DNA from: a virus
Reading direction: 5' to 3' (one strand)
DNA: 20,933 nt
Virus record (IMG/VR): IMGVR_UViG_3300045141_000081
Coordinates: 1-20,933 of that record
This document shows, piece by piece, positions 4,496 through 19,919 of the stretch (position 1 is the stretch's first letter; every line of letters begins with the position of its first letter). The translations under genes were made by a program, and so were the position numbers. The notes under the pieces were generated by a model, which made no database searches, was not told the origin of the DNA, and saw only the letters and a list, made by a program, of their open reading frames with translations.

Positions 4496-5896
4496 ATGGC
4501 GAACTGGCTCGCCAGGGTCTTGCCGTGGACGGCGCGAGCCGTTGAGGGGCAATACCGCCCGGGACCATATGTGCTGTCTACCGGCGGTTGGCTGCCGAAG
4601 GGATCGGGCTGGAATTACTGGCAGACCGGGTTGCCGCAAGGCGGGTTGCCGGCCGGCGAGCGCAGCGCGATGGTCGAGGCGTGCGTCTCGGCCTATAGCC
4701 AGACGGTCGCGATGTGTCCTGGCGATCATTGGCGCACGCTTGCGAATGGCGGCCGGGAGCGGGTGACGAATTCGGCGCTGACGCGGATTCTGCGGCAACC
4801 GAACGATTATCAGTCGATCAGCGATTTTTTGCTCAACATGACCCGGCGGCTATACGAGCAAGGCCAGGCGTTTGCCGTCGCGATCCGCAACAACCGCGGC
4901 GAGATCAACGAACTGCACCTGATGCGGATCGGCCAGGCGCTGCTTGCCGTCGACGGTTCGATTTTTTACTCGCTGCAAGGCAACGAGGTCGCGCAGCAGC
5001 GGTTCGATCTAACGATGCCGATACCAGCTCGCGACGTGCTGCACGTTCGATTGCACACACCGCGGCATCCGCTGATCGGCGAAAGCCCGATCCTGTCGGC
5101 GGCGCTTGACCTAGCGATGTCGGGCGCAGCGCTAAGCCAGCAAGTTTCGTTTTATCTGAACCAGGCTCGCCCGAGCTTCCTGCTGCAAACCGACCAGAAG
5201 TTGTCGCAGGAGCAGCGGAACCTGCTGCGGGCCGAATGGGACGAGAGAAGCCAGGGGGACAATGCCGGCAAAACACCGATCCTGACCTGGGGTTTGAAGG
5301 CGCAACCGATCCAGACCTCGGCCGTGGACGCGCAATTGGCCGAGATGCTGAAGATGACCGACCAGGCGATTGCGCTATGCATGAGGATACCGCCACAGAT
5401 CCTCGGGCTGGAATCGGCGCGGTCTGCCAGCGCTACAACCGCCGAAGTGCATATGCAGGAATGGATAGCGCAGGGGCTCGGGTTCACGCTGAACCACATC
5501 GAGGAGGCGATGGGGCTCATGTTCGGGTTGTTCGGCTACCCGGACGAATATTTGGAATTTGATACCCGCGCGTTGCTGCGCAGCGCTTACCGCGACCGGA
5601 TCGAGGCGTTGGCGCGTGGCGTTATTAGCGGCATCTACTCGCCCGACGAGGCGCGCGCCGCAGAGGACCTGCCGGCGGTGCCGGGCGGCTATGGCGAGCA
5701 GCCCAGAGTGCAGCAGCAGGTCGTCCCGCTGAGTTACGGGGCGGATCTCCAGCCGCCCTCGCCGCAAGCGTCAGCGTCGGCACCGGGCACGCCGCCAGCC
5801 GACAACCCTGCCGATGGGAGCGGCGATGCAAACCAGCCCACCAAGCAGCAGCTCGTCTCCGCTGTCCGATCCGGTTATGACCGCATCGCCGCTTGA
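4496..5896 (+). CDS. Phage portal protein (HK97 family)
   Basis: 466 residues, close to the usual 400-470 of the family. Portals form the dodecameric ring at one capsid vertex through which DNA passes, and dock the terminase and then the connector. Family-like segments are LPAGERSAMVEACVSAYSQT (51-70), RLYEQGQAFAVAIRNNRGEI (118-137), DVLHVRLHTPRHPLIGESPI (180-199), the MRIPPQILGLES loop (296-307) and a C-terminal GVISGIYSPDEARAAEDLP (375-393). The last 60 residues are low-complexity Pro/Ser/Ala/Gln. No strong ribosome site precedes the ATG; a short CCCGC/GCGGG hairpin (4471-4475, 4483-4487) encloses the upstream stop. Its place after the capsid gene departs from the common terminase-portal-protease-capsid order. 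Confidence 0.93.
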   Translation: MANWLARVLPWTARAVEGQYRPGPYVLSTGGWLPKGSGWNYWQTGLPQGGLPAGERSAMVEACVSAYSQTVAMCPGDHWRTLANGGRERVTNSALTRILRQPNDYQSISDFLLNMTRRLYEQGQAFAVAIRNNRGEINELHLMRIGQALLAVDGSIFYSLQGNEVAQQRFDLTMPIPARDVLHVRLHTPRHPLIGESPILSAALDLAMSGAALSQQVSFYLNQARPSFLLQTDQKLSQEQRNLLRAEWDERSQGDNAGKTPILTWGLKAQPIQTSAVDAQLAEMLKMTDQAIALCMRIPPQILGLESARSASATTAEVHMQEWIAQGLGFTLNHIEEAMGLMFGLFGYPDEYLEFDTRALLRSAYRDRIEALARGVISGIYSPDEARAAEDLPAVPGGYGEQPRVQQQVVPLSYGADLQPPSPQASASAPGTPPADNPADGSGDANQPTKQQLVSAVRSGYDRIAA

Positions 5897-6530
5897 GGTC
5901 GTCGCCGAAGAGCTTGGGGCGATAGCGGCGCGGGTCGAGCGGGAATTAAAGCTCGCTCTTGCCGCGGCACTGGCCGAGATCCGAGAGGAGAGGGCGGCAC
6001 TGCGTGCCGACCGCGCCGAAACCGAGCTGAATCTGGAGCGGGTCATCGCCGCGAGGCTCGCAACCTTGCAAGACGGCAGGGACGGCCCGCCAGGGCCGCA
6101 GGGCGAGCGTGGGGAGCGTGGGGAGCGTGGGGAGGCTATCATAGGCCCGCCCGGCGAACAGGGCATTCCTGGGGCTCCTGGCCAGCCGGGGGCCGCAGGA
6201 GCCGATGGCCGCTCGTTCGCGATCTGCGGAACGTGGTCTGCAACGGGCCAATATCGAGCACTCGATATCGTGACGCTGAATGGCGCCAGCTTTGCCGCCA
6301 GAGCAGACGATCCGGGGGCGTGTCCCGGCGAGAGTTGGCAGATGATTGCGCGCCAAGGCAAGCCCGGCGAAAAGGGGGAGCGCGGGCCGAAGGGTGAGAA
6401 AGGCCCGGCGGGGCGCGGTCTGTCGAACGCGGCGATTGACGACCAGGGGCTGCTGACGCTGACGCACGATGACGGCTCTGCCGTAACCTGCGACCTTTAT
6501 CCGCTGCTCTCCCGAATCGGCAAGCGATGA
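5826..6530 (+). CDS. Collagen-like fibrous protein with an embedded sugar-binding-like domain
   Basis: 234 residues from the ATG at 5826, chosen because GGGAG (5816-5820) lies five bases upstream; an ATG at 5814 would add four residues. Layout: Ser/Pro N terminus (1-22); long Ala/Glu/Arg helix (23-80), a likely trimerising coiled coil; Gly-X-Y collagen repeats (84-128, including three identical ERG units); a compact domain with GTWSATGQYRALDIVTLNG then ACPGESWQMIARQG (129-177), resembling small carbohydrate-binding/chitin-binding modules; a second Gly-X-Y run (178-198); and a beta-rich tail ending CDLYPLLSRIGKR. It overlaps the portal by 71 bases and abuts the connector gene by ATGA. Trimeric fibre formation is likely; whether it sits on the head or neck is unknown. 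Confidence 0.8.
   Translation: MQTSPPSSSSSPLSDPVMTASPLEVVAEELGAIAARVERELKLALAAALAEIREERAALRADRAETELNLERVIAARLATLQDGRDGPPGPQGERGERGERGEAIIGPPGEQGIPGAPGQPGAAGADGRSFAICGTWSATGQYRALDIVTLNGASFAARADDPGACPGESWQMIARQGKPGEKGERGPKGEKGPAGRGLSNAAIDDQGLLTLTHDDGSAVTCDLYPLLSRIGKR
6105..6131 (+). repeat. Three perfect copies of a 9-bp tandem repeat in the collagen region
   Basis: The unit GAGCGTGGG occurs three times without mismatch and encodes Glu-Arg-Gly repeated. Gain or loss of a unit by strand slippage would change the collagen stalk by exactly one Gly-X-Y triplet without breaking the frame. Confidence 0.9.
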
Positions 6531-9271: not shown

Positions 9272-9432
9272 TGGACTACACGCCGCGGCAATTGCAGGCG
9301 TTCCTCATCATCGTGTCGCACCGCAAACAGCACGAGCTTGCCGAGCAACTGCACATCGGCGCGCTGGCAGCACAAGGCGACTCAAAGGCTATCAAGGACG
9401 TGATGCGAAAGCTGACAGACGATGCCCGATAA
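9271..9432 (+). CDS. Second tail assembly chaperone segment (gpT-like)
   Basis: 53 residues in the -1 frame relative to the first chaperone, starting at the ATG of a TGATG overlap and ending 11 bases inside the tape measure gene. It reads MDYTPRQLQAFLIIVSHRKQ, then a helical HELAEQLHIGALAAQGDSKA, then KDVMRKLTDDAR, a compact helical protein typical of the small gene before tape measures. It may be made on its own by re-initiation at TGATG, or as the C-terminal part of a 206-residue frameshift fusion, or both; the frame is open well upstream, to before 9094. Function as a tape-measure chaperone is inferred from position. Confidence 0.72.
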   Translation: MDYTPRQLQAFLIIVSHRKQHELAEQLHIGALAAQGDSKAIKDVMRKLTDDAR

Positions 9433-11413
9433 CCTAACCGTAACGATCGGCGCCGATAGCTCCAAGCTGCTCGCCGACCTGAAGCTCGCCCAGGCGGCGT
9501 TGAAGTCTCTCAACGCCGAGATGACGGCGCTCACGAAGACGGCACAGCAGACCGGCGACCGGGCCGCCGTCGACGCGATGGCGCCGAAGATCATCGCGGC
9601 GCAGAAGGAGGTCGTCAGACTCAGCACGGCTTGGAAGGGTGTTGCGCCTTCGGTCAATACCGCAACCCGAAGCGTCGCTGTCTTCGGCGAGGTCAGCAAC
9701 CGCGAACTGATTAAATTCTCGCGCAGCTTTGGCAGTCTCAACAAATCGGCCGAAACCTTTGGGGTTATTATCGGCGGCGCATTTGGCGGCTTTACCGGCG
9801 GCTTGTTCGCAAGAGCTATTTCTTCGGTATTCGGGACATTTATCACTCAGTTAGACGAGGCATCAAAGCGCTTGACGGCGCTTCAACAACAAGCACGCGA
9901 GGCCGGAGTCAAACCGATCGCCGTCCAGGCGGCCGGCGAGGCGGCGGAACAGGCCGGACTACAAGCCGAAGCTGGAGAAAAGGCGTTTACGAGCTTTGCG
10001 AAGGCGTTGGCGGAGGCCCGCGCCGCCGTCCCGCGAGAGGCTACTCGGGGAATGCAGGTATTGCGCGGCCTTGGCCCAGATCCGAACGTGACCGGCGCCG
10101 CGGTCAATGATGCCGCCAAAGGCATCAGCGCAATGGACGCCGCCGCTAAGGAAGCCACCGGAAGTGTCCGCGTTCTGCGCGGCAGCGTAGCCGATGCCAC
10201 CACTCAGTTCGACAGCATGGGAAGGCTGCTGCCGACTGTGCTGAAAGGTGGCACGCGGGATCTGAAGGATTTTTCCAACGAGTGGGCAACTCTCGGCATC
10301 GATCCCGGACGGGTAAAACCCGAAGACACTCTCAAGTCATACGAAATTGCGATCCGGCGTGTCCTGGAGCTTGCAAAACAATTTCCGTCACAAGCGAACG
10401 TTATTTCTCAGAAGCTTTTCGGCGGTTTGACGATCCCCGACCTTCAGGAGATAACCCGAGACGCGGACAAACTGGATGCGCTGATAAAGAAACTCGCGGC
10501 AACGCAGCGGGGTGCCACGGACGAACATTTAAAAGACAACAAAGAATTAGTCAAAGCTCAAAACGAGGTGACTAAGGCATGGAATGAAACTACCGCAGCC
10601 ATAGCCAACGACAGCAGGGAGATCGAAATTTGGTATCTTAAATTGAAAACCAGAGTCATTGAGGGATTGCCCCAAGCGCTTCGCGATATGTTTGATTTTC
10701 GCGTTATAAAGGAGGGAGCGCGGTTACTCGGCTCGACCGCGACGACGTTTTCCAATGCGTGGACCGCTTCGATCAATTGGGTAGAAAGGCAACTTAGCGG
10801 CCTTATTGGAGCGTTTAATGCGACCGCGGCAGCGGCAAGCTCGATGGCGAGTGCCGCGGGCGCTGCGGCAAGCACTGCGGGCGCCGCAGCGATGGGCATT
10901 GGTGGCGGCGCTTCCGCTGGCACGCCGGGAACCTCCAGCTATCAGGCGGGGCCTGCTCAGATGGTTTTCCCAACCGGCGAAGGCAGTTCATTCGGAGTCA
11001 ACGTCTTACGGGGCGGCACCGGAGCACCAAGCTCCCCACTTAATATCACAAGCCAGGCGACCGGCGGTTACATCCGCGGGCCGGGCAGCAGCACCAGCGA
11101 CAGTATTCTGGCCCGACTCAGCAATGGTGAGTTTGTGTTGAATGCCGGGTCAGTCCGCCGGGTTGGTATCGGCTTTCTCGAGGCACTCAACAGTTTTGCC
11201 GCTGGCGGCCTGGTAAGCCCGCTGCCGCGCTTCGCCGAGGGCGGCCTGGTGGGCAGTGGCGGAACCCCGGTGCATCTCCATCTCGGCGGCCATAGCTTCG
11301 CGCTATCCGGCAGCGAGAGTGTGGTCGGCTCCTTGGTCCTCGAGGCGCACCGGCACAAGATCCGCTCGGCCGGCGTCAAGCCGAGCTGGTACGGCGGCAC
11401 GCCTGGCCGATGA
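9422..11413 (+). CDS. Tail length tape measure protein
   Basis: 663 residues. The N-terminal part is helical and Ala/Lys/Gln-rich (DLKLAQAALKSLNAEMTALT) and leads to a Gly-rich hydrophobic stretch (GVIIGGAFGGFTGGLFARAI, 114-133), a possible membrane-inserting segment. Residues 440-520 are Ala/Ser/Gly-rich. From about 546 the sequence carries the motif usual at the end of tape measures in this phage group (GGYIRGPGSSTSDSILARLS, then NGEFVLNAGSVRR), followed by an FAAGGL/FAEGGL pair and HLHLGGHSFALSG. By the common rule of about 0.15 nm per residue, this predicts a tail near 100 nm. No lytic domain is visible. Bases around 10440-10720 are clearly less GC-rich than the rest. Confidence 0.9.
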   Translation: MPDNLTVTIGADSSKLLADLKLAQAALKSLNAEMTALTKTAQQTGDRAAVDAMAPKIIAAQKEVVRLSTAWKGVAPSVNTATRSVAVFGEVSNRELIKFSRSFGSLNKSAETFGVIIGGAFGGFTGGLFARAISSVFGTFITQLDEASKRLTALQQQAREAGVKPIAVQAAGEAAEQAGLQAEAGEKAFTSFAKALAEARAAVPREATRGMQVLRGLGPDPNVTGAAVNDAAKGISAMDAAAKEATGSVRVLRGSVADATTQFDSMGRLLPTVLKGGTRDLKDFSNEWATLGIDPGRVKPEDTLKSYEIAIRRVLELAKQFPSQANVISQKLFGGLTIPDLQEITRDADKLDALIKKLAATQRGATDEHLKDNKELVKAQNEVTKAWNETTAAIANDSREIEIWYLKLKTRVIEGLPQALRDMFDFRVIKEGARLLGSTATTFSNAWTASINWVERQLSGLIGAFNATAAAASSMASAAGAAASTAGAAAMGIGGGASAGTPGTSSYQAGPAQMVFPTGEGSSFGVNVLRGGTGAPSSPLNITSQATGGYIRGPGSSTSDSILARLSNGEFVLNAGSVRRVGIGFLEALNSFAAGGLVSPLPRFAEGGLVGSGGTPVHLHLGGHSFALSGSESVVGSLVLEAHRHKIRSAGVKPSWYGGTPGR

Positions 11414-11878: not shown

Positions 11879-14572
11879 GTGCCGGGGCCGTTTTACTTTG
11901 CCTGGGCGGGCGGCACGATCCAAGACCAGCAAACGCTGATCACCAATGGCAACACGCATGGCGGCGTGGTCGAGACAATCACGGTCGTCGGCGATGTCGT
12001 AGCCGGTGTCGCGCGGCTCGACAACGTCGCGACTTTCACCGGGTTGGAGGAAGGCGGCTTCTATCGGATCACCGGACCCGGCATCGATGACGCCTTTTTC
12101 ATCTACGACAATTCCGTTCTGAGCGAGCCGGGCTCGGTCAACCTGAGTGCAGCATCGACCGCGACGGCTACCTCGGCGACGTTTGTCGCCACCAAGCCGA
12201 TCGTGTTCGGCACTGTTGCGGGTTCGATGGTGCAGGGCTCGAATACCGTTACGCTGCTGGATGACATCGACCTTCAACCGGGCACCTACTCGATCTCGGG
12301 CACCAGCATCGGCCAAACGGCCGACCTTGTCGGCGGGATCATGTTCGTCTCATCGGCTTGGTTCGAGTATACCGGCAGCCCAAACGTCGCGATGTTTATC
12401 CACAATTCTGTAGACGGCTTCGTCGGCTACCAGCCCGTGACGGCGACCTCGACCGGCACCTATTCGCTGCTCATCAGCGGTATGCCGAACGACGATTGGT
12501 ACAGCATCACCGGCATCCCGGCGGGTGCCCTGGCATCGCTGACGACCGGGCTCAGATACAACATCAGCGGCAACGGCATACAGGTCGGGACAACGTTTGT
12601 CGCCGATAGCGCCGCGACCTCGATCACGCTGGATCTGCCGGCGAGCTCATCCGCCTTTGCCGCCATCCTGACGATCACGGGACCCAGGACGCCGAATGCG
12701 GACTTCGATCCGCTCGTCCACAACCGCGAGGACGAGGAAATCGTCAGCCTTGAGATCAGTCAGGAGGAAGGCGGCTTCGCAACGCTGACGGCCGACATCA
12801 AAAATCCCAACATCGGGTTGCTGGCGTTCGGCCGAAATCTATGGTGCTGGCTCAGTTGGGACCAGGGCGACGGGACTCTGGTGCCGCTGTTCAATGGCCG
12901 ACTGATCGGCGTTCCGAAGCTCTCGGTCGGCGAGATCGTGCAGCTTCAGTTCCTGGCGCGGCCCGACGACTTCAATGCTCAGAAGGGCGCGCTGGTCGAG
13001 AACCTTAGCGTGTTGCCGTACTACGATCCGGTCTGGCTCGCGAGCAATGTCAATCCCGACACTGTGCTAGAGACTTATTCCTCCCTTTGGCACATCGACC
13101 GCACCAGCCTTGTGCTGACCGCCAGCGACATTCTGCAAGGCGAGGCCGGCACCGTTTCGATCGGCGAGGACAAAGCGTTCTACGATAGCTTTTCGCTGGC
13201 TTATGGCTCGCCGCCGCTGACCGCGGTCACCGTATCGGGAACCGTTAACTGGAACCAGCAGGGCGAAGGCTCGCTCGACATCACGCAGACGGTGGTCGGT
13301 GCTTTCGCGAAGGCTGGGTCGCCCTACAAAAAGACCTACGGGACGTATTATGCGAACAGAAAGCACGATACAAGCGGCGGCGGCGGCCTGATTAGTTGCA
13401 TCTGCGGCGACGGGTTGCGCACCGATTGGCCGAAGCCGGGCACGACCATCGGTGGCGGCTGGAGGTTGAGCAGCGACAATGACGGGATCGGTAAGCCGCT
13501 CTGCTATTGCATCGACGCTTTGCTTCCGAATGGTTGGATGCAGGGGCAAACCTACAACGTAAAATATGCCGGGCAGTCTACGGCCGACACAACGGGGATG
13601 ACGACCGACCAGGCCGACGTCGCCGTAGTGACCGGAACCTATGGGCAATACACCGCCAGATTTCCGATCAACATCTACAAGATTCAGATGGTGCTCGATT
13701 GGCAGGCGAGTCGGACCCGCACCGAGACGGTGGCGGCGGTCATGACCGCGAACGTCCAACGCGAGCTTTCAGACACCGCCGACAGCGACCGCGAAGACAT
13801 ATCGCTGAGTTCCGAATATGTGGACAAGGGCATCGATCCGGGCGGCGAAGTGCCGCTCGGCAGCGTTTCTCGCCGCTCCTATTTCCAGACCGACCGGGGC
13901 GCGTCGTCGTTCGAGTATTTGTTGCTGGCGGCGCGGGCCAAGATGCGGGCCAGGGCGAGGTCGGTGGACATCACATTCGGGGTCGATTGGCCGACCGCGC
14001 TCGGCATCGGCCTACGCCATAGTGTTACCTATCTCGACCGGCGGCTTCCCGGCGGAACGGCAACCGGCAAGGTCAAATCATACAAGCTGACGGTCGGCGA
14101 GGCCGGCATGTTCGGCGAGTTCACGATCGGTTGCAGCATCGGCAATGACGACCTGTCGTCTGCCGCCGAGGGTGTGCCGTCCTATGTGGAAGCCGATTAC
14201 GTCGATCCCGGCTATCAAGTGATGTCGGGCGGGCAAAAGATGTTGCTCGCCGACGAGCTGGCCTATCAGACGCTCGATGATTTTGTGATCGACGACGACG
14301 GCCTTGACCTGACCAACATGACAATCGAGCGCGGCGTCAACGAGTGCGTCGTTATCAACGGGCTGACTACGCAATTCGACACACTATCCACCTACCAGCG
14401 TACCGTAACCCCGACCGCGGGCGATCCAATCACAGCGATGCGGACGGCGACGACCGCGGTGACCCTCGACCTAAAGCCGGTTTCCGGCAACGCTTTTCAT
14501 ACGACGTTTTTCCCGTCCGTCTCCCAGCTATGGCTGCCGAAGACGATCGACCTTGCAGCATCGGTAGGGTGA
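11879..14572 (+). CDS. Baseplate hub / tail-tip protein with N-terminal beta-module insertion
   Basis: 897 residues from a GTG at 11879, with GGAGGA at 11865-11870 eight bases upstream. The first residues (MPGPFYFAWAGGT) and the part from 273 on (NADFDPLVHNREDEEIVSLE; FATLTADIKNPNIGLLAFGR; VPLFNGRLIGVP; DTVLETYSSLWHIDRTS) read as one conserved tail-tip protein of the hub type seen in alphaproteobacterial siphophages. Residues 36-270 hold two to three beta-rich modules of about 70 residues (such as GVARLDNVATFTGLEEGGFY and RYNISGNGIQVGTTFVADSA). Two CxC pairs (C507/C509 and C542/C544) may bind metal. The rest, to 897, is beta-rich. It would close the tube and hold the fibres. The family call is moderately sure; no lysozyme or peptidase motif was found. 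Confidence 0.72.
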   Translation: MPGPFYFAWAGGTIQDQQTLITNGNTHGGVVETITVVGDVVAGVARLDNVATFTGLEEGGFYRITGPGIDDAFFIYDNSVLSEPGSVNLSAASTATATSATFVATKPIVFGTVAGSMVQGSNTVTLLDDIDLQPGTYSISGTSIGQTADLVGGIMFVSSAWFEYTGSPNVAMFIHNSVDGFVGYQPVTATSTGTYSLLISGMPNDDWYSITGIPAGALASLTTGLRYNISGNGIQVGTTFVADSAATSITLDLPASSSAFAAILTITGPRTPNADFDPLVHNREDEEIVSLEISQEEGGFATLTADIKNPNIGLLAFGRNLWCWLSWDQGDGTLVPLFNGRLIGVPKLSVGEIVQLQFLARPDDFNAQKGALVENLSVLPYYDPVWLASNVNPDTVLETYSSLWHIDRTSLVLTASDILQGEAGTVSIGEDKAFYDSFSLAYGSPPLTAVTVSGTVNWNQQGEGSLDITQTVVGAFAKAGSPYKKTYGTYYANRKHDTSGGGGLISCICGDGLRTDWPKPGTTIGGGWRLSSDNDGIGKPLCYCIDALLPNGWMQGQTYNVKYAGQSTADTTGMTTDQADVAVVTGTYGQYTARFPINIYKIQMVLDWQASRTRTETVAAVMTANVQRELSDTADSDREDISLSSEYVDKGIDPGGEVPLGSVSRRSYFQTDRGASSFEYLLLAARAKMRARARSVDITFGVDWPTALGIGLRHSVTYLDRRLPGGTATGKVKSYKLTVGEAGMFGEFTIGCSIGNDDLSSAAEGVPSYVEADYVDPGYQVMSGGQKMLLADELAYQTLDDFVIDDDGLDLTNMTIERGVNECVVINGLTTQFDTLSTYQRTVTPTAGDPITAMRTATTAVTLDLKPVSGNAFHTTFFPSVSQLWLPKTIDLAASVG

Positions 14573-14576
14573 TCTG

Positions 14577-15167
14577 ATGCCGTTTGAATATGCCGTTCGT
14601 CCATACCAGACACCGGACAGTTCTGGCCGGGTCATCATTCCAGCTACGCCATCTGGCCATGAACGTGCAACGCTAACCTGGGGCGCGAAGACCAGCGTCG
14701 ATCAGGTGAAATTCGACAAAACCGGCGGGGACGTTGAGTGCTGCAAGGACGACCGCACGCAAGAGACCGGCGCGGTGGGTTCCTTTAAGTCTCAAAGAGG
14801 CAAGGTTATTCAACAGGTGTGGGGAGTACCCGGCACCCCTCCGCAACCGCATGGGCAATGGGGCGCAGAAATCATAGTTGATGAAAGCACCAGCGTTTTA
14901 TATCGCAAGAAGCAACAGGATATGTGCGCCGCCGAATGGAATCAAATGTCCGCTGTTGCCTCTGCCGTTGATGGCGCCTTCGCCAGTCTTGAGGCCGATA
15001 TCGAAGCGCAGGGTGCCGGGGCAGACGTGGATCACTGTAAGGCGCGGGTAAATACGTTCTTTGCCGCGACTGATACCTTCAACGGTAATCCGTTGGGATC
15101 TTTTCCGCAAACGATGCCGACCTTCTCAGGGCCAGATTTACTTAAACCGCCAACCGCGCCGGCTTGA
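14577..15167 (+). CDS. Tandem paralog 1 of an unrecognised tail-associated family
   Basis: 196 residues, no family recognised. It is the longest of three adjacent paralogs. Residues 1-40 are nearly invariant among them (MPFEYAVRPYQTPDS; IIPATPSGHERATLTWGAKT). A variable centre (41-105, here with a unique VWGVPGTPPQPHGQW loop) leads to a conserved helical block (CAAEWNQMSAVASAVDGAFA; ASLEADIEAQGAGADVDHC) and a private 40-residue tail rich in Pro, Phe and Thr. Cysteines C55, C56, C117 and C154 match in all copies. No signal peptide or membrane span. The gene starts five bases after the hub stop. Role in the tail tip or host recognition is suggested by position only. Confidence 0.75.
   Translation: MPFEYAVRPYQTPDSSGRVIIPATPSGHERATLTWGAKTSVDQVKFDKTGGDVECCKDDRTQETGAVGSFKSQRGKVIQQVWGVPGTPPQPHGQWGAEIIVDESTSVLYRKKQQDMCAAEWNQMSAVASAVDGAFASLEADIEAQGAGADVDHCKARVNTFFAATDTFNGNPLGSFPQTMPTFSGPDLLKPPTAPA
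14994..15041 (+). repeat. 48-bp perfect direct repeat, copy 1
   Basis: Identical over 48 bases to 15543-15590, offset 549 bases, in the same reading phase of paralogs 1 and 2 (it encodes ADIEAQGAGADVDHCK). The flanking coding sequence of the two genes differs at many third positions, so the identity here suggests recent gene conversion or strong local constraint. Confidence 0.9.
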
Positions 15168-15179
15168 GGATTAAAATAG

Positions 15180-15620
15180 ATGCCGTTTGAGTATTTTGTC
15201 CGACCCTTTCAAACGCCTGATTCAAATGGGCGGGTCATCATTCCGTCCACGCCGTCAGGGCACGAAAGAGCGACGCTTACCTGGGGTGCGAAGACCAGCA
15301 GCTTGCCAGCGCCGGAACGTACCGGGACCAATGTGAATTGTTGCGGAGAAGAATTGGATGAGGGTGAACGGGACGGGGAGGTTCACAAAATCTCGTCAGT
15401 CGAATCACCGGGGCTGTTCGTCTTGGAACATCGGCCGACGCAAGTGAAGCTACGAAAGAAACACGAGGACAAATGCGCCGCTGACTGGAACCAGATGTCG
15501 GGCGTTGCGTCGGCCGTCGAGAGCGCCTTCTCCAGCCTCGAAGCCGATATCGAAGCGCAGGGTGCCGGGGCAGACGTGGATCACTGTAAGACCCAGGTGT
15601 TGCATCTTAATCCGGGGTGA
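15180..15620 (+). CDS. Tandem paralog 2 of an unrecognised tail-associated family
   Basis: 146 residues, the shortest copy. It shares the near-invariant N terminus (MPFEYFVRPFQTPDS; TPSGHERATLTWGAKTSSLP), the CC pair (C54, C55), and the helical block with C99 and C136 (KCAADWNQMSGVASAVESAF). Its centre (NCCGEELDEGERDGEVHKIS) is acidic and differs from copy 1, and it lacks the long C-terminal tail, ending shortly after DVDHCKTQVLHLNPG. Start supported by GAGGA at 15166-15170. Its 3' block is identical to copy 1 over 48 bases and to copy 3 over 35 bases, so it looks like a mosaic of the other two. Function unknown. Confidence 0.75.
   Translation: MPFEYFVRPFQTPDSNGRVIIPSTPSGHERATLTWGAKTSSLPAPERTGTNVNCCGEELDEGERDGEVHKISSVESPGLFVLEHRPTQVKLRKKHEDKCAADWNQMSGVASAVESAFSSLEADIEAQGAGADVDHCKTQVLHLNPG
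15466..15500 (+). repeat. 35-bp perfect repeat shared by paralogs 2 and 3 (copy in paralog 2)
   Basis: Identical to 15914-15948 and encodes the core of the CAADWNQMS block. A further 23-base identity joins 15522-15544 and 15970-15992. Confidence 0.85.
15543..15590 (+). repeat. 48-bp perfect direct repeat, copy 2
   Basis: Same 48 bases as 14994-15041, here in paralog 2. The corresponding segment of paralog 3 is quite different (LALESSWPSIDHC), so the identity is confined to copies 1 and 2. Confidence 0.9.
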
Positions 15621-15624
15621 TGAA

Positions 15625-16101
15625 ATGCCGTTCGAGTATTTTGTGCGACCTTTTCAAACACCCGACAGTCAAGGGCGGATCATCATTCCGTCCACACCCT
15701 CGGGCCATGAGAGGGCAACGCTGACCTGGGGGGCGAAGACCAGCAGTCTGCCGGCGGTAGAACAAAGCGGCACCAGCGTCGATTGCTGTAGTGAGCATTT
15801 GGAAGAAGTCGAGCGGAAGACTGAGCGAGTCAAAATTATAGACCAATTCAGTTCACCGGAAAATTATATGTTGGTTGATCGTGCAACCAGCGTAAAGCTA
15901 CGCAAGAAACATCAGGACAAATGCGCCGCTGACTGGAACCAGATGTCGTCCGTCGCTTCGGCTATTGATAGCGCCTTCTCCAGCCTCGAAGCGGATCTTG
16001 CGCTGGAGAGTTCTTGGCCGTCGATTGATCACTGCCATCAGCAGTTGCAATTACGACAGAACACCGTTCAGACACCGAATGATCCGAGACTTGCTCCATG
16101 A
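15625..16101 (+). CDS. Tandem paralog 3 of an unrecognised tail-associated family
   Basis: 158 residues from the ATG at 15625. The frame is open further upstream, but this ATG follows GGGGTGA (15614-15620) and gives the same N terminus as the other copies (MPFEYFVRPFQTPDS). The conserved blocks and all four cysteines (C54, C55, C100, C137) are kept. The centre is again different (DCCSEHLEEVERKTERVKII; FSSPENYMLVDRATS) and the tail is basic/Gln-rich (HQQLQLRQNTVQTPNDP). Its centre is AT-rich: bases 15841-15900 contain 25 G+C of 60. It overlaps the next gene by ATGA. Function unknown; the pattern of fixed ends and changing centre is what one expects of a binding protein under diversifying pressure. 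Confidence 0.75.
   Translation: MPFEYFVRPFQTPDSQGRIIIPSTPSGHERATLTWGAKTSSLPAVEQSGTSVDCCSEHLEEVERKTERVKIIDQFSSPENYMLVDRATSVKLRKKHQDKCAADWNQMSSVASAIDSAFSSLEADLALESSWPSIDHCHQQLQLRQNTVQTPNDPRLAP
15914..15948 (+). repeat. 35-bp perfect repeat shared by paralogs 2 and 3 (copy in paralog 3)
   Basis: Identical to 15466-15500 at the same place in the paralog alignment, offset 448 bases. It marks the most conserved helical block of the family. Confidence 0.85.
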
Positions 16102-16742
16102 TAACCGTCCCTAAACGGCGCCGTATCGTCAGGCCAACGGATGCGTCGCAGCTTACGTATCGATATGAGTTTCCGTTTCTGTTTGACCGCATCGTTGAGT
16201 TGCATACGAAACGCGATCCCGAGCAAGACCCTGAGCCGCCACCAGATCCGGGTGGACCGCCGCCAGCCCCACCGCCCTGCGTGTCCTCATGGGATTCGAG
16301 CGTGTTGGTGGACCGGCTTGGTCAGCCGATAGGAATCCCAGGTTATCTCTATTACGACGGCGACCTATGGATCAATCCGCCGCAGTGCTGCCCCCCTGCC
16401 TTTCTCGATGCAGATGGCAACCCGATATTATTTCCCGATGGCGTGGAGGGAGTATTTATTGACGGAAGCGGAAGCAGTGCTCTTATAGCGGGCGGAAATG
16501 CTAAGTCACTAACGCTCACTTTTAGTGGTCCGCTCGATGGTGTCGCCAAATGGCCGAGAACCTGTCCGAGTCAAACTCATACATATGATCCGGAAATTTG
16601 GGGAGCAGTAGTAACTGTTTCGATCGACGAGCTGGCCCTACCGGAACATGAGGCACATCAAGGTTGCGGAACGACTATAGAACCCTTCGGCACTAAGCGC
16701 ACTGAGGGTTCCGTCCTCGTTGAATTTGACTGCCCAGAGTAA
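16098..16742 (+). CDS. Cysteine- and proline-rich orphan protein, probable tail-tip accessory
   Basis: 214 residues, not recognised. A basic start (MITVPKRRRIVRPT) leads to an amphipathic stretch (YRYEFPFLFDRIVELHTK), then an acidic/proline linker (DPEQDPEPPPDPGGPPPAPP, 40-59), and a beta-rich C-terminal domain. Six cysteines: C61, the doublet C97-C98 (PPQCCPPAF), C156, C190 and C212. The last part (VVTVSIDELALPE; GSVLVEFDCPE) looks like a small beta-sandwich. It is coupled by ATGA to paralog 3 and ends seven bases before the fibre gene, so it belongs to the cassette between hub and fibre. A linker that ties a C-terminal binding domain to the tip is a guess. Confidence 0.65.
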   Translation: MITVPKRRRIVRPTDASQLTYRYEFPFLFDRIVELHTKRDPEQDPEPPPDPGGPPPAPPPCVSSWDSSVLVDRLGQPIGIPGYLYYDGDLWINPPQCCPPAFLDADGNPILFPDGVEGVFIDGSGSSALIAGGNAKSLTLTFSGPLDGVAKWPRTCPSQTHTYDPEIWGAVVTVSIDELALPEHEAHQGCGTTIEPFGTKRTEGSVLVEFDCPE

Positions 16743-16748
16743 CCCCTG

Positions 16749-19700
16749 ATGGTCGACATCACCTATCGCACGTTAGGTCCCTGGGGTTCCGGTAAAGGAG
16801 CCAACCTCCAGCCGTCAGAGGTTGACGCCAACTTCTATTCGTTGGCGACTGCGATCGTTGATCTGATCAACAATCCGGAGTCGCCGAACGGAATTGATTC
16901 GATAGCGGTCAGCGGCACGCAGATGACCATCACCTTGCAGGACGGCACGGTGCTTGGCCCTTACACCTTGCCGGTTCTGACCTTCCGCTGGCGCGGTGAG
17001 TTCGAGCCAAACGTCTATGCCGTGCTGGATGTTTTTACCGTCAGTCTCGGCAATACCGATGTGGCTGATCCGGCAACCGTTTCCTACGGTATCTATATGG
17101 TGCAGATCGCCGGCACCTATTCGCTGTTCGATCAGGGCGAGATGGTCGGCGGGGAACCCGTCTACAAGCAATTGTTCGGATCGACCGACAACAGTCTTGC
17201 CACGATGGGTGATGTTGATGTCATCGACCCGCTGGCGGATGGCGACGTTCTGCGCTGGAACGCAGGCACCAGTTTATGGACAAACTCTGCGCTCGGCTCG
17301 ATGGCGGTGCAAGCCGCCAGCGCGGTCAACATTTCCGGTGGGGTGTTCCACAACCTCGCCAACCCGCTGTTGCCCGGTGATGCTGTTAACAAAGCCTATG
17401 TCGATTCGCTGCCAGCCGGGATGACGATCGATCCCGGGCTGATGATGGCAAATACGCTGGCCATGGTCGGCCCGGCAATCGGCACCGAATTGTCGGATTA
17501 TCTCGATTATGTGCTTGGCACGACGATACGCGGAACGATGATGTACCGCGGCGGGGCGGGCTGGATCGCGCTACCGCCCGGTGCAAACGGACTATTCCTT
17601 CAGACCCATGATGCCGGTGCTGACCCTACCTGGGCGGTCGGCGGTTCCGGTGTCGTCTCGATCACCGCTGGCACTGGGATCAACACAGGCGGCGCGCCGA
17701 TCACCAACACCGGCACGGTGTCGCTGGCAACAATCGCCGATAGCAACCTGCTTGCGAATATCAGTGGCGTTTCGGCCGCGCCAGTGCCGGCAACGCTGAG
17801 TGCGTTGCTCGATCACTCCGCGTCGAACGTCCGCGGCTCTGTGCTGATGCGCGCGGGTGGCGGTTGGGTCGCATTGGCGCCTGGCATCAGCGGGTATTTC
17901 CTCAAAACGCAGGGCACTGGCGCCGATGTGATGTGGGATGCGCCGGCCGGCTCCGGCACCGTTACCTCGATTGCGGCTGGCACCGGCTTGACTACGGGCG
18001 GCGCGCCAATCACCGGCTCTGGCACGATCTCGTTTGCGACTACCGCGGATAGCAGCTTGCTCGCCAATGTCAGCGGCAGCACCGCCGCGCCGGCCGCGAC
18101 GAGCTTGACTTTGCTGCTCGACCATGTGCTGGGCACGGCGCAAGGCAGCATTCTTTATCGCAGTGCTAGTGCTTGGGTGCAGTTGACGCCGGGTACCAGC
18201 GGCCAAATCCTGACGACGGGCGGTACTGGGGCAAATCCATCATGGGCCAATGCGCCGGCCAGCCCGGCGATCGGCAGCCATCTGATACTGGCGAATATCA
18301 CGGGCGCATCGGCCGTCCCGATCGGCAACACGCTGTCGAACATCCTCGATGCCGTTATCTCGTCGACGCGCGGCACGCTGATTTACCGCACGAGCAGCGG
18401 CTGGACCGGGCTGGCACCGGGCACCGCCGGCCAGGTGCTCACGACCGGCGGTAGCGCCGCAGATCCGGCATGGGCGCCGGGCGGCAGCACCATCAGTGTC
18501 GGCGACACGCCGCCCGCCTCGCCAAGCCCCGGCGCCGGCTGGTGGGATAGTGCCGACGGGCAACTGTATATCCGCTATGACGACGGCAATTCGGCGCAAT
18601 GGGTGCCGGCAAGCAATCAGCCGGGGTCGCCAGGCCCGACCGGCGCGACCGGTGCTAGTGGCCCGGCAGGTCCGACCGGCAGCACCGGGCCGGCGGGACC
18701 GATTGGCACGATCGTCGCCGGCACTGGCCTCTCAGGCGGCGGCAGTACCAGCTCGGTCACGGTCAATCTCGCGACGCCTGTTTCGATCGCCAATGGCGGC
18801 ACGAGCGCAGCGACTGCGCCCGCGGCGCTGGTGGCGCTTGGAGCGGCGCCGCTTGCCTCGCCGGTCTTCACCGGCACGCCGTCGCTGCCAGCGGGCGCAA
18901 TTGGTATCACTGCGGCGGCCGGCGACAACGATACGAGCATTGCGACGACGGCTTTTGTGCAGGCGGCGGTAACGCCGACTGCAAACAATGTCGGGCGCAA
19001 TGTCCTGCACAACAGCATGTTCAATGTGGCGCAGCGCATTGGTCCGTTCACGACAAACAACGCGTACACACTCGACCGCTGGGTGATGGGCTTTGGCGGT
19101 GGCACGTTATCGGTGACGCAGCTTGCCTTGGCTGACGCCGATCGGACTGCAATTGGCGACGAGGCAGCCCGGAATTGTTTGCAAAGTGTTTGTGTCGCGG
19201 GAGGCGGCGTCGCTGATTTGGATTTTATCACTCAATATATTGAGGACATACGCCGTTTGAGCGGCAAAACGGTGACGGTATCGTTCTGGGCTCGGGCGAC
19301 TGCCGGGACGCCAAAGCTGGCGATCGAGTTGAACCAGAGTTTCGGGACTGGCGGATCGCCCTCGGCAAACGTCAGTACGATTGGCAGCCAAGCGTTTACC
19401 TTGTCCACCAACTGGACGCGGTATGTCTCGACGCCAATTGCGGTGCCGAGCGCGGTTGGCAAGACCTTTGGCACAACGGCAGGAACCGACGCCACCGCAT
19501 TGACATTATGGCAGAGTGCCGGTTCCACCTATGCAGCTCGCGCTTCCAACATCGGAACGCAGAGCTACACCTTGCAGGTATGGGGCATTCAGCTCGAAAT
19601 CGGCAGCGTTGCCACACCGCTCGAAAAGCCCGACCCGCAGCAGGATCTCGCGAAGTGTCAGCGGTTTTATGTAGGCAATGGCTACTTTTTTCTCGGTGCG

Positions 19701-19919
19701 TGGAATGGCGCAGGAAGTGCGTTTGCTGGCGTAGCCAGCTTTCCGGTGCAGATGCGAGCGGCTCCGACTATCGTGTTTACCGGTGCGCCGTCGCTGGTGA
19801 ATTGTAGTGTCTTGAATGCGTTCAATCCCAACCCGTTGAACTTTGTTTGTAATTCTGTAGCTACCGCCGCTGCCCAGACGCAAATTCTGACAAGTTTTAC
19901 CGCATCGGCGGATCTCTGA
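16749..19919 (+). CDS. Tail fibre with four internal repeats, collagen stalk and C-terminal binding domain
   Basis: 1056 residues. The N-terminal part (1-250) carries a virion-side domain (MVDITYRTLGPWGSGKGANL). Four repeats begin at D253, D355, D458 and D534 (102, 103, 76 and about 48 residues), each with an RG-x-x-x-Y/M-R start, a GW-x-x-L-x-PG turn and a GADPTW-like end. Then comes a module common in phage fibres (GDTPPASPSPGAGWWDS; YDDGNSAQWVPASNQ), a collagen-like stretch (625-651), a trimerisation-type segment (GGTSAATAPAALVALGAAPL; DTSIATTAFVQAAV, 683-740) and, from 750, a beta-sandwich of carbohydrate-binding type (NVLHNSMFNVAQRIGPFTTN; YTLDRWVMGF). Expected to be a trimer that contacts the host surface. 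There is no visible catalytic site of a depolymerase, though one could be hidden. Confidence 0.88.
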   Translation: MVDITYRTLGPWGSGKGANLQPSEVDANFYSLATAIVDLINNPESPNGIDSIAVSGTQMTITLQDGTVLGPYTLPVLTFRWRGEFEPNVYAVLDVFTVSLGNTDVADPATVSYGIYMVQIAGTYSLFDQGEMVGGEPVYKQLFGSTDNSLATMGDVDVIDPLADGDVLRWNAGTSLWTNSALGSMAVQAASAVNISGGVFHNLANPLLPGDAVNKAYVDSLPAGMTIDPGLMMANTLAMVGPAIGTELSDYLDYVLGTTIRGTMMYRGGAGWIALPPGANGLFLQTHDAGADPTWAVGGSGVVSITAGTGINTGGAPITNTGTVSLATIADSNLLANISGVSAAPVPATLSALLDHSASNVRGSVLMRAGGGWVALAPGISGYFLKTQGTGADVMWDAPAGSGTVTSIAAGTGLTTGGAPITGSGTISFATTADSSLLANVSGSTAAPAATSLTLLLDHVLGTAQGSILYRSASAWVQLTPGTSGQILTTGGTGANPSWANAPASPAIGSHLILANITGASAVPIGNTLSNILDAVISSTRGTLIYRTSSGWTGLAPGTAGQVLTTGGSAADPAWAPGGSTISVGDTPPASPSPGAGWWDSADGQLYIRYDDGNSAQWVPASNQPGSPGPTGATGASGPAGPTGSTGPAGPIGTIVAGTGLSGGGSTSSVTVNLATPVSIANGGTSAATAPAALVALGAAPLASPVFTGTPSLPAGAIGITAAAGDNDTSIATTAFVQAAVTPTANNVGRNVLHNSMFNVAQRIGPFTTNNAYTLDRWVMGFGGGTLSVTQLALADADRTAIGDEAARNCLQSVCVAGGGVADLDFITQYIEDIRRLSGKTVTVSFWARATAGTPKLAIELNQSFGTGGSPSANVSTIGSQAFTLSTNWTRYVSTPIAVPSAVGKTFGTTAGTDATALTLWQSAGSTYAARASNIGTQSYTLQVWGIQLEIGSVATPLEKPDPQQDLAKCQRFYVGNGYFFLGAWNGAGSAFAGVASFPVQMRAAPTIVFTGAPSLVNCSVLNAFNPNPLNFVCNSVATAAAQTQILTSFTASADL
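17505..18491 (+). repeat. Four imperfect ~76-103-residue coding repeats in the tail fibre
   Basis: Repeat starts at 17505, 17811, 18120 and 18348. Units share the order RGTMMYRGGAGWIAL, then a glycine turn, then TAGTGINTGGAPITNTGTVS and ADSNLLANISGVSAAP. The third lacks the middle ITxGTG block and the fourth stops after its first half, so the array shortens towards the 3' end. The divergence excludes a recent tandem duplication. Confidence 0.8.

Follow-up and report, generated by a model that had tools for sequence, protein, structure and literature searches.

In mycobacteriophage Mysterious, the beta-rich proteins gp35, gp36 and gp37, which are numbered consecutively, form a baseplate heterotrimer that is clamped by the C-terminus of the hub (PMC13252515, preprint 2026). 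Each of these proteins has a beta core with an arm at its N-terminus and an extension at its C-terminus, and the unit that they form is held by the hub. This is the nearest structural precedent for the arrangement proposed below for A, B and C, the products of three adjacent paralogous genes. The likeness drawn here is one of description. The Mysterious system differs in its host and hub, and its six heterotrimers are in contact with the distal tail protein as well; moreover, the cited passages describe neither paralogy of gp35-37 nor homogenisation of their ends (PMC13252515).

The window, that is, the whole stretch of 20,933 bases that was analysed, is an IMG/VR virus record with a siphophage-like gene layout. 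The TerL encoded at 287-1861 shares 65% identity with its counterpart in Pseudomonas phage PAJU2, and neither the hub nor the 155-residue tail protein gave a tblastn match in INPHARED, which points to a mosaic genome. The tape measure (9422-11413) shares only 44% identity with its counterpart in the relative L004, although the adjoining 155-residue protein and the hub reach 92% and 90%, and this suggests that the tape measure gene may have been exchanged or is fast-changing. Among the head genes, a 238-residue protein (5814-6530) carries collagen-like GPPGPQGERGERGE repeats. The anchor gene of the tail module is the hub (11879-14572, + strand, 897 aa), which has 80 relatives in IMG/VR and owes its label to position and size, being unnamed in family libraries. 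Since approximately 275 N-terminal residues (11879-12700) are missing from the matches in most of the more distant hubs (L067-L094), the hub of the window possesses an extra N-terminal part. The tail fibre (16749-19919, + strand, 1056 aa) has a conserved N-terminus, YRTLGPWGSGKGANLQPSEVDANF, and matches PHROG tail fibre families with E values down to 2.6e-50; the relatives keep the gene order of the window at this gene.

After the hub stop at 14572, A, B and C follow head to tail on the + strand with near-zero spacing, and the next gene, D, overlaps C by 4 bp. A (14577-15167, 196 aa) has a derived centre that carries a long insert, and its tail is Pro-rich; B (15180-15620, 146 aa) has a derived centre, ESPGLFVLEHRPTQVKLRKK, and C (15625-16101) retains the ancestral family centre. 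The length of C, 158 aa, is counted from the ATG; in the program-made ORF list it starts at an upstream TTG within B and has 198 aa. In BLASTP comparisons from residue 1 to about 140, A and B are 54% identical (E 2e-54), A and C 49% (E 2e-51), and B and C 68% (E 7e-72); identity of 49-68% over such a length places the paralogy beyond chance. The sequence-only reading of this DNA had described three adjacent paralogs with nearly identical first 40 residues and a conserved C-terminal helical block, and both segments proved to be as described (88-95% and 58-79% identity between copies, respectively). Its view of the centres as unrelated-looking was overstated, as they are homologous: those of B and C are 51% identical, and A has the same CC pair and flanking residues. 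Orthologs of both A and B occur in L004, L005 and L006, that of A at position 2 and that of B at position 1 in L006.

A, B and C belong to a previously undescribed family of small post-hub proteins in soil and other environmental viruses, for which the name P was coined here. A scan of IMG/VR proteins gave eight loci with relatives of A, B and C, and an alignment search with the hub gave 80 hub loci, in all ORFs of which P homologs were sought by iterated HMM. The profile matches A, B and C over the N-terminus, the central hairpin and the last strand (E 2e-44 to 9e-57), but it was seeded with these very proteins, and independent support comes from matches in BLAST and tblastn. Of the 70 loci that extend 300 bp or more beyond the hub, 69 have P downstream of it, 64 of them directly adjacent; the same holds for 56 of the 57 lineages obtained by clustering hubs at 95%, in which P is likewise downstream. 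The suspected association with the hub and fibre module is thus borne out, and A, B and C occupy the position typical of the family, downstream of the hub and ahead of D and the fibre. A fibre-like gene stands between hub and P in L026, L028, L045 and L048, and L051 shows a similar gap; the sole locus without P, L024, terminates within a fibre-like gene of the type that precedes P in those four. One copy of P was found in 45 lineages, a tandem pair in five and a triplet in four including the window, and three further lineages have P together with a separate three-repeat protein. Most relatives carry a single copy. The single-copy proteins (e.g., L012, L029, L042 and L053) resemble A, B and C in lying between the hub and D, in the four-Cys pattern and in the central hairpin motif, but differ in the copy number, in lineage-specific ends and in lacking an A- or B-type centre.

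Consistent with the first impression of an unrecognised family, A, B and C matched no entry of Pfam, PHROG or PDB, and with these no known cytoplasmic protein; a comparison of all 57 aligned P members with Pfam and PHROGs gave no meaningful match, and the P profile gave none in PDB. Tblastn searches with C and with distant P and hub members against INPHARED phages, and with the first 95 residues of C against plasmids, were also negative, so no cultivated relative or host can be named. A search of contigs from GTDB genomes with the alignments of P and of the hub, by narrow patterns, found none.

The distribution of conservation along P was in part the reverse of the constant anchor and changing centre that had been proposed. 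Across the 57 aligned members, the central motif R....VRIxxxxxPxxYVxVxR is kept even in distant ones such as L070-L089. Over the nine multi-copy genomes, identity within a genome and between genomes was 84% and 70% for the N-terminus, 75% and 38% for the C-terminal block, and 28% and 33% for the centre. By these comparisons the centre, a predicted beta-hairpin, is the core of the family and is inherited by orthology, and the ends, the C-terminal block most of all, have diverged from phage to phage and agree within each genome. In the trees, which are built on few columns and leave many forks open, the centre requires 2 changes by type (the minimum for three types) and 19 by genome; for the C-terminal block the counts are 10 by type, where 2 is the minimum, and 12 by genome, close to the minimum of 8. 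Orthologous centres are 51-88% identical among the triplet genomes, and their dN/dS of 0.05-0.17, with one pair at 0.41, in an analysis where some segments were saturated, indicates purifying selection. The hypervariable or diversifying centres that would mark a diversity-generating cassette are thus absent between relatives, and the suggestion of a locus that generates variants is contradicted. The low dN/dS of orthologs and the open reading frames also ruled out decaying redundant duplicates. The nearest centre was of the C type for 24 of 26 single-copy members, and 25 of the 26 were nearest to the second copy in two-copy genomes; because the single-copy members are nearest to C-type or last-copy centres, C is taken to hold the ancestral centre. 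Duplication followed by divergence of the centre is the most likely origin of A and B.

Recombination between copies, which had been raised as a possibility, left clear traces. A 48-bp tract in the C-terminal block of A (14994-15041, + strand) is identical to 15543-15590 of B (+ strand) and is a probable gene-conversion tract. Because uneven conservation inflates a plain permutation test on identical stretches of DNA, codons for the same residue were used instead; the A-B tract comprises 16 such consecutive identical codons (permutation p 0.0002), and in L004 the B and C genes share 19 identical codons in succession (p 0.0001). Only these two tracts remain clear after allowing for approximately 15 tests, other pairs being weak or not significant, and ortholog pairs used as controls gave no signal. 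In L006, the synonymous distance between copies 2 and 3 is 0.37 and 0.33 in the ends and 1.6 in the centre. Moreover, in the lineage of L006, L007, L016 and L022 the A- and B-type centres are swapped and the position-1 N-terminus has not moved: the position-1 gene of L006 and L007 combines the usual N-terminus of that position, YAVRPFES, with a B-type centre, and in the second gene an A-type centre follows a later-position N-terminus. The presence of this order in two contigs from separate samples makes an assembly accident unlikely. Judging from these traces, the copies do recombine, but in a way that homogenises the ends and leaves the centres stable, without diversification.

The cysteines corresponding to 54, 55, 100 and 137 are either all present or all absent in every aligned P member except L057, and A, B and C carry the full set (CC, C, C). 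The quartet occurs in 22 of 22 aligned tandem-copy members and in most of the near single-copy ones, and is absent from the rest. As L057 retains only two, the equivalents of 55 and 137, the simplest reading would be two disulfides, C55-C137 and C54-C100. Such bonds would fit a protein exposed outside the cell, but the four residues could instead be metal ligands. AlphaFold2 gave a model of low confidence (mean pLDDT 62), in which only the hairpin (residues 55-72 and 81-96) reaches 70-87; a first model, built on 20 sequences, was discarded at pLDDT 46. Foldseek with the better model gave no match below 1e-3, and matches to peptide deformylase were rejected on TM-scores of approximately 0.13 and large rmsd.

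The gene overlapping C, D (16098-16742, + strand, 214 aa), encodes a constant N-terminus, EFPFLFDRIVELHTK, a Pro-rich linker and a variable, Cys-containing C-terminal domain. A D with a similar N-terminal motif comes after P in nearly all relatives, where the constant N-terminus (E-P--DRIV-VHWKKK or similar) and a Gly/Pro-rich linker are joined to widely differing C-terminal domains, some with weak Laminin_G_3 or BNR matches below the Pfam cut-offs. The heads of D in L073 and L074 are weakly lectin-like. The architecture that the sequence-only reading ascribed to the triplet is thus that of D. From this pattern, D looks like a better candidate than the triplet for the variable host-contact protein.

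Proteins with three core-like repeats, as read by eye, were found near or directly ahead of D in L090, L093 and L094, and L099 encodes a 740-residue protein in which three repeats, each with SYAQE, are fused to a D-like part. They resemble A, B and C in having about three core motifs adjacent or fused to a D-like protein, and differ in being a single polypeptide without the cysteine quartet. In the ORF search, the profile supported the first repeat in L093 (E 1e-7) and L090 (8e-4) and in L099 only at 0.07, and repeats 2 and 3 are only weakly similar to P. Kinship of these proteins with P, given a match mainly on the first repeat, is a lead and not proof. The L099 gene (5001-7223), with its P-core-like repeats and D-like part, lies, in contrast to A, B and C, among head-tail and tail-tube genes outside the hub context. 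Also outside that context, L098 (4698-6358) has a P-core-like separate gene before a D-like protein with a weak BNR match, in a podovirus-like gene order.

The reading favoured here, at a probability of roughly 55%, is that A, B and C are tail-tip adaptor subunits that dock on the hub and form a hetero-oligomer, perhaps an A:B:C heterotrimer; we infer the virion location of P, the hetero-oligomer and the contact with D as its steps. The extended N-terminus and the C-terminal helical block would dock on a shared partner, the hub and/or each other being the most likely candidates, and the central beta-hairpin core would hold the contacts private to each copy. Ancestrally, a single P gene would have followed the hub, its product probably forming a homo-oligomer. 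In this clade, duplication would have led from one copy to two and then three, the last keeping the old centre and the upstream ones gaining new centres, while gene conversion and common constraint would keep the docking ends alike inside each genome. With two or three copies the oligomer would become mixed and, at the hub tip, present D and/or the fibre. The three core-like repeats per protein in L090, L093, L094 and L099 speak for a unit of three subunits; the two-copy genomes are a poor fit to a strict A:B:C rule.

Each copy might instead form its own homo-oligomeric ring or plug, stacked below the hub through the shared ends so that the tip is lengthened without any hetero-oligomer. The common ends and the copy numbers of 1, 2 and 3 suit such a stack as well as a heterotrimer, and N-terminal residue 6, which is A at position 1 and F at later positions in eight of the nine multi-copy genomes, distinguishes the first place from the others; three core-like repeats within one chain, as in L090 and L099, are better suited to a three-subunit unit, and the stack is considered unlikely. 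Small proteins encoded beside fibre genes are often chaperones, and P could comprise non-virion assembly factors for the hub, D or the fibre. This is quite improbable, as paired cysteines suit an exposed structural protein better than a cytoplasmic one, and in L099 P-like cores form one protein with a D-like part. Least credible are interchangeable host-binding cassettes, whose recombining copies would vary their centres to shift host range. The window tract and the L004 run do reveal recombining copies, A and B centres were exchanged in L006, and the locus lies beside the fibre and D; the centres, however, are orthologous across phages and under purifying selection, the C-type centre is maintained across the whole family, and most relatives are single-copy.

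Summarizing, the presented results suggest that A, B and C are matched, non-identical tail-tip parts rather than a variant-generating machine. They link the P family, absent from the family libraries searched, to the tail hub in 56 virus lineages or more, and would redirect work on host recognition in these uncultivated phages from the triplet to D. One, two and three tandem copies, together with the three-repeat chain, offer a natural series for how a homo-oligomeric virion part might turn hetero-oligomeric. More tentatively, and at less than even odds, triplication may have converted a symmetric homo-oligomeric adaptor into an obligate heterotrimer with conversion-kept ends and specialised centres, made elsewhere as one fused three-core chain. 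If this is true, the phage group would show one tail-tip part in three forms, encoded by a single gene, by several genes or as a fusion.
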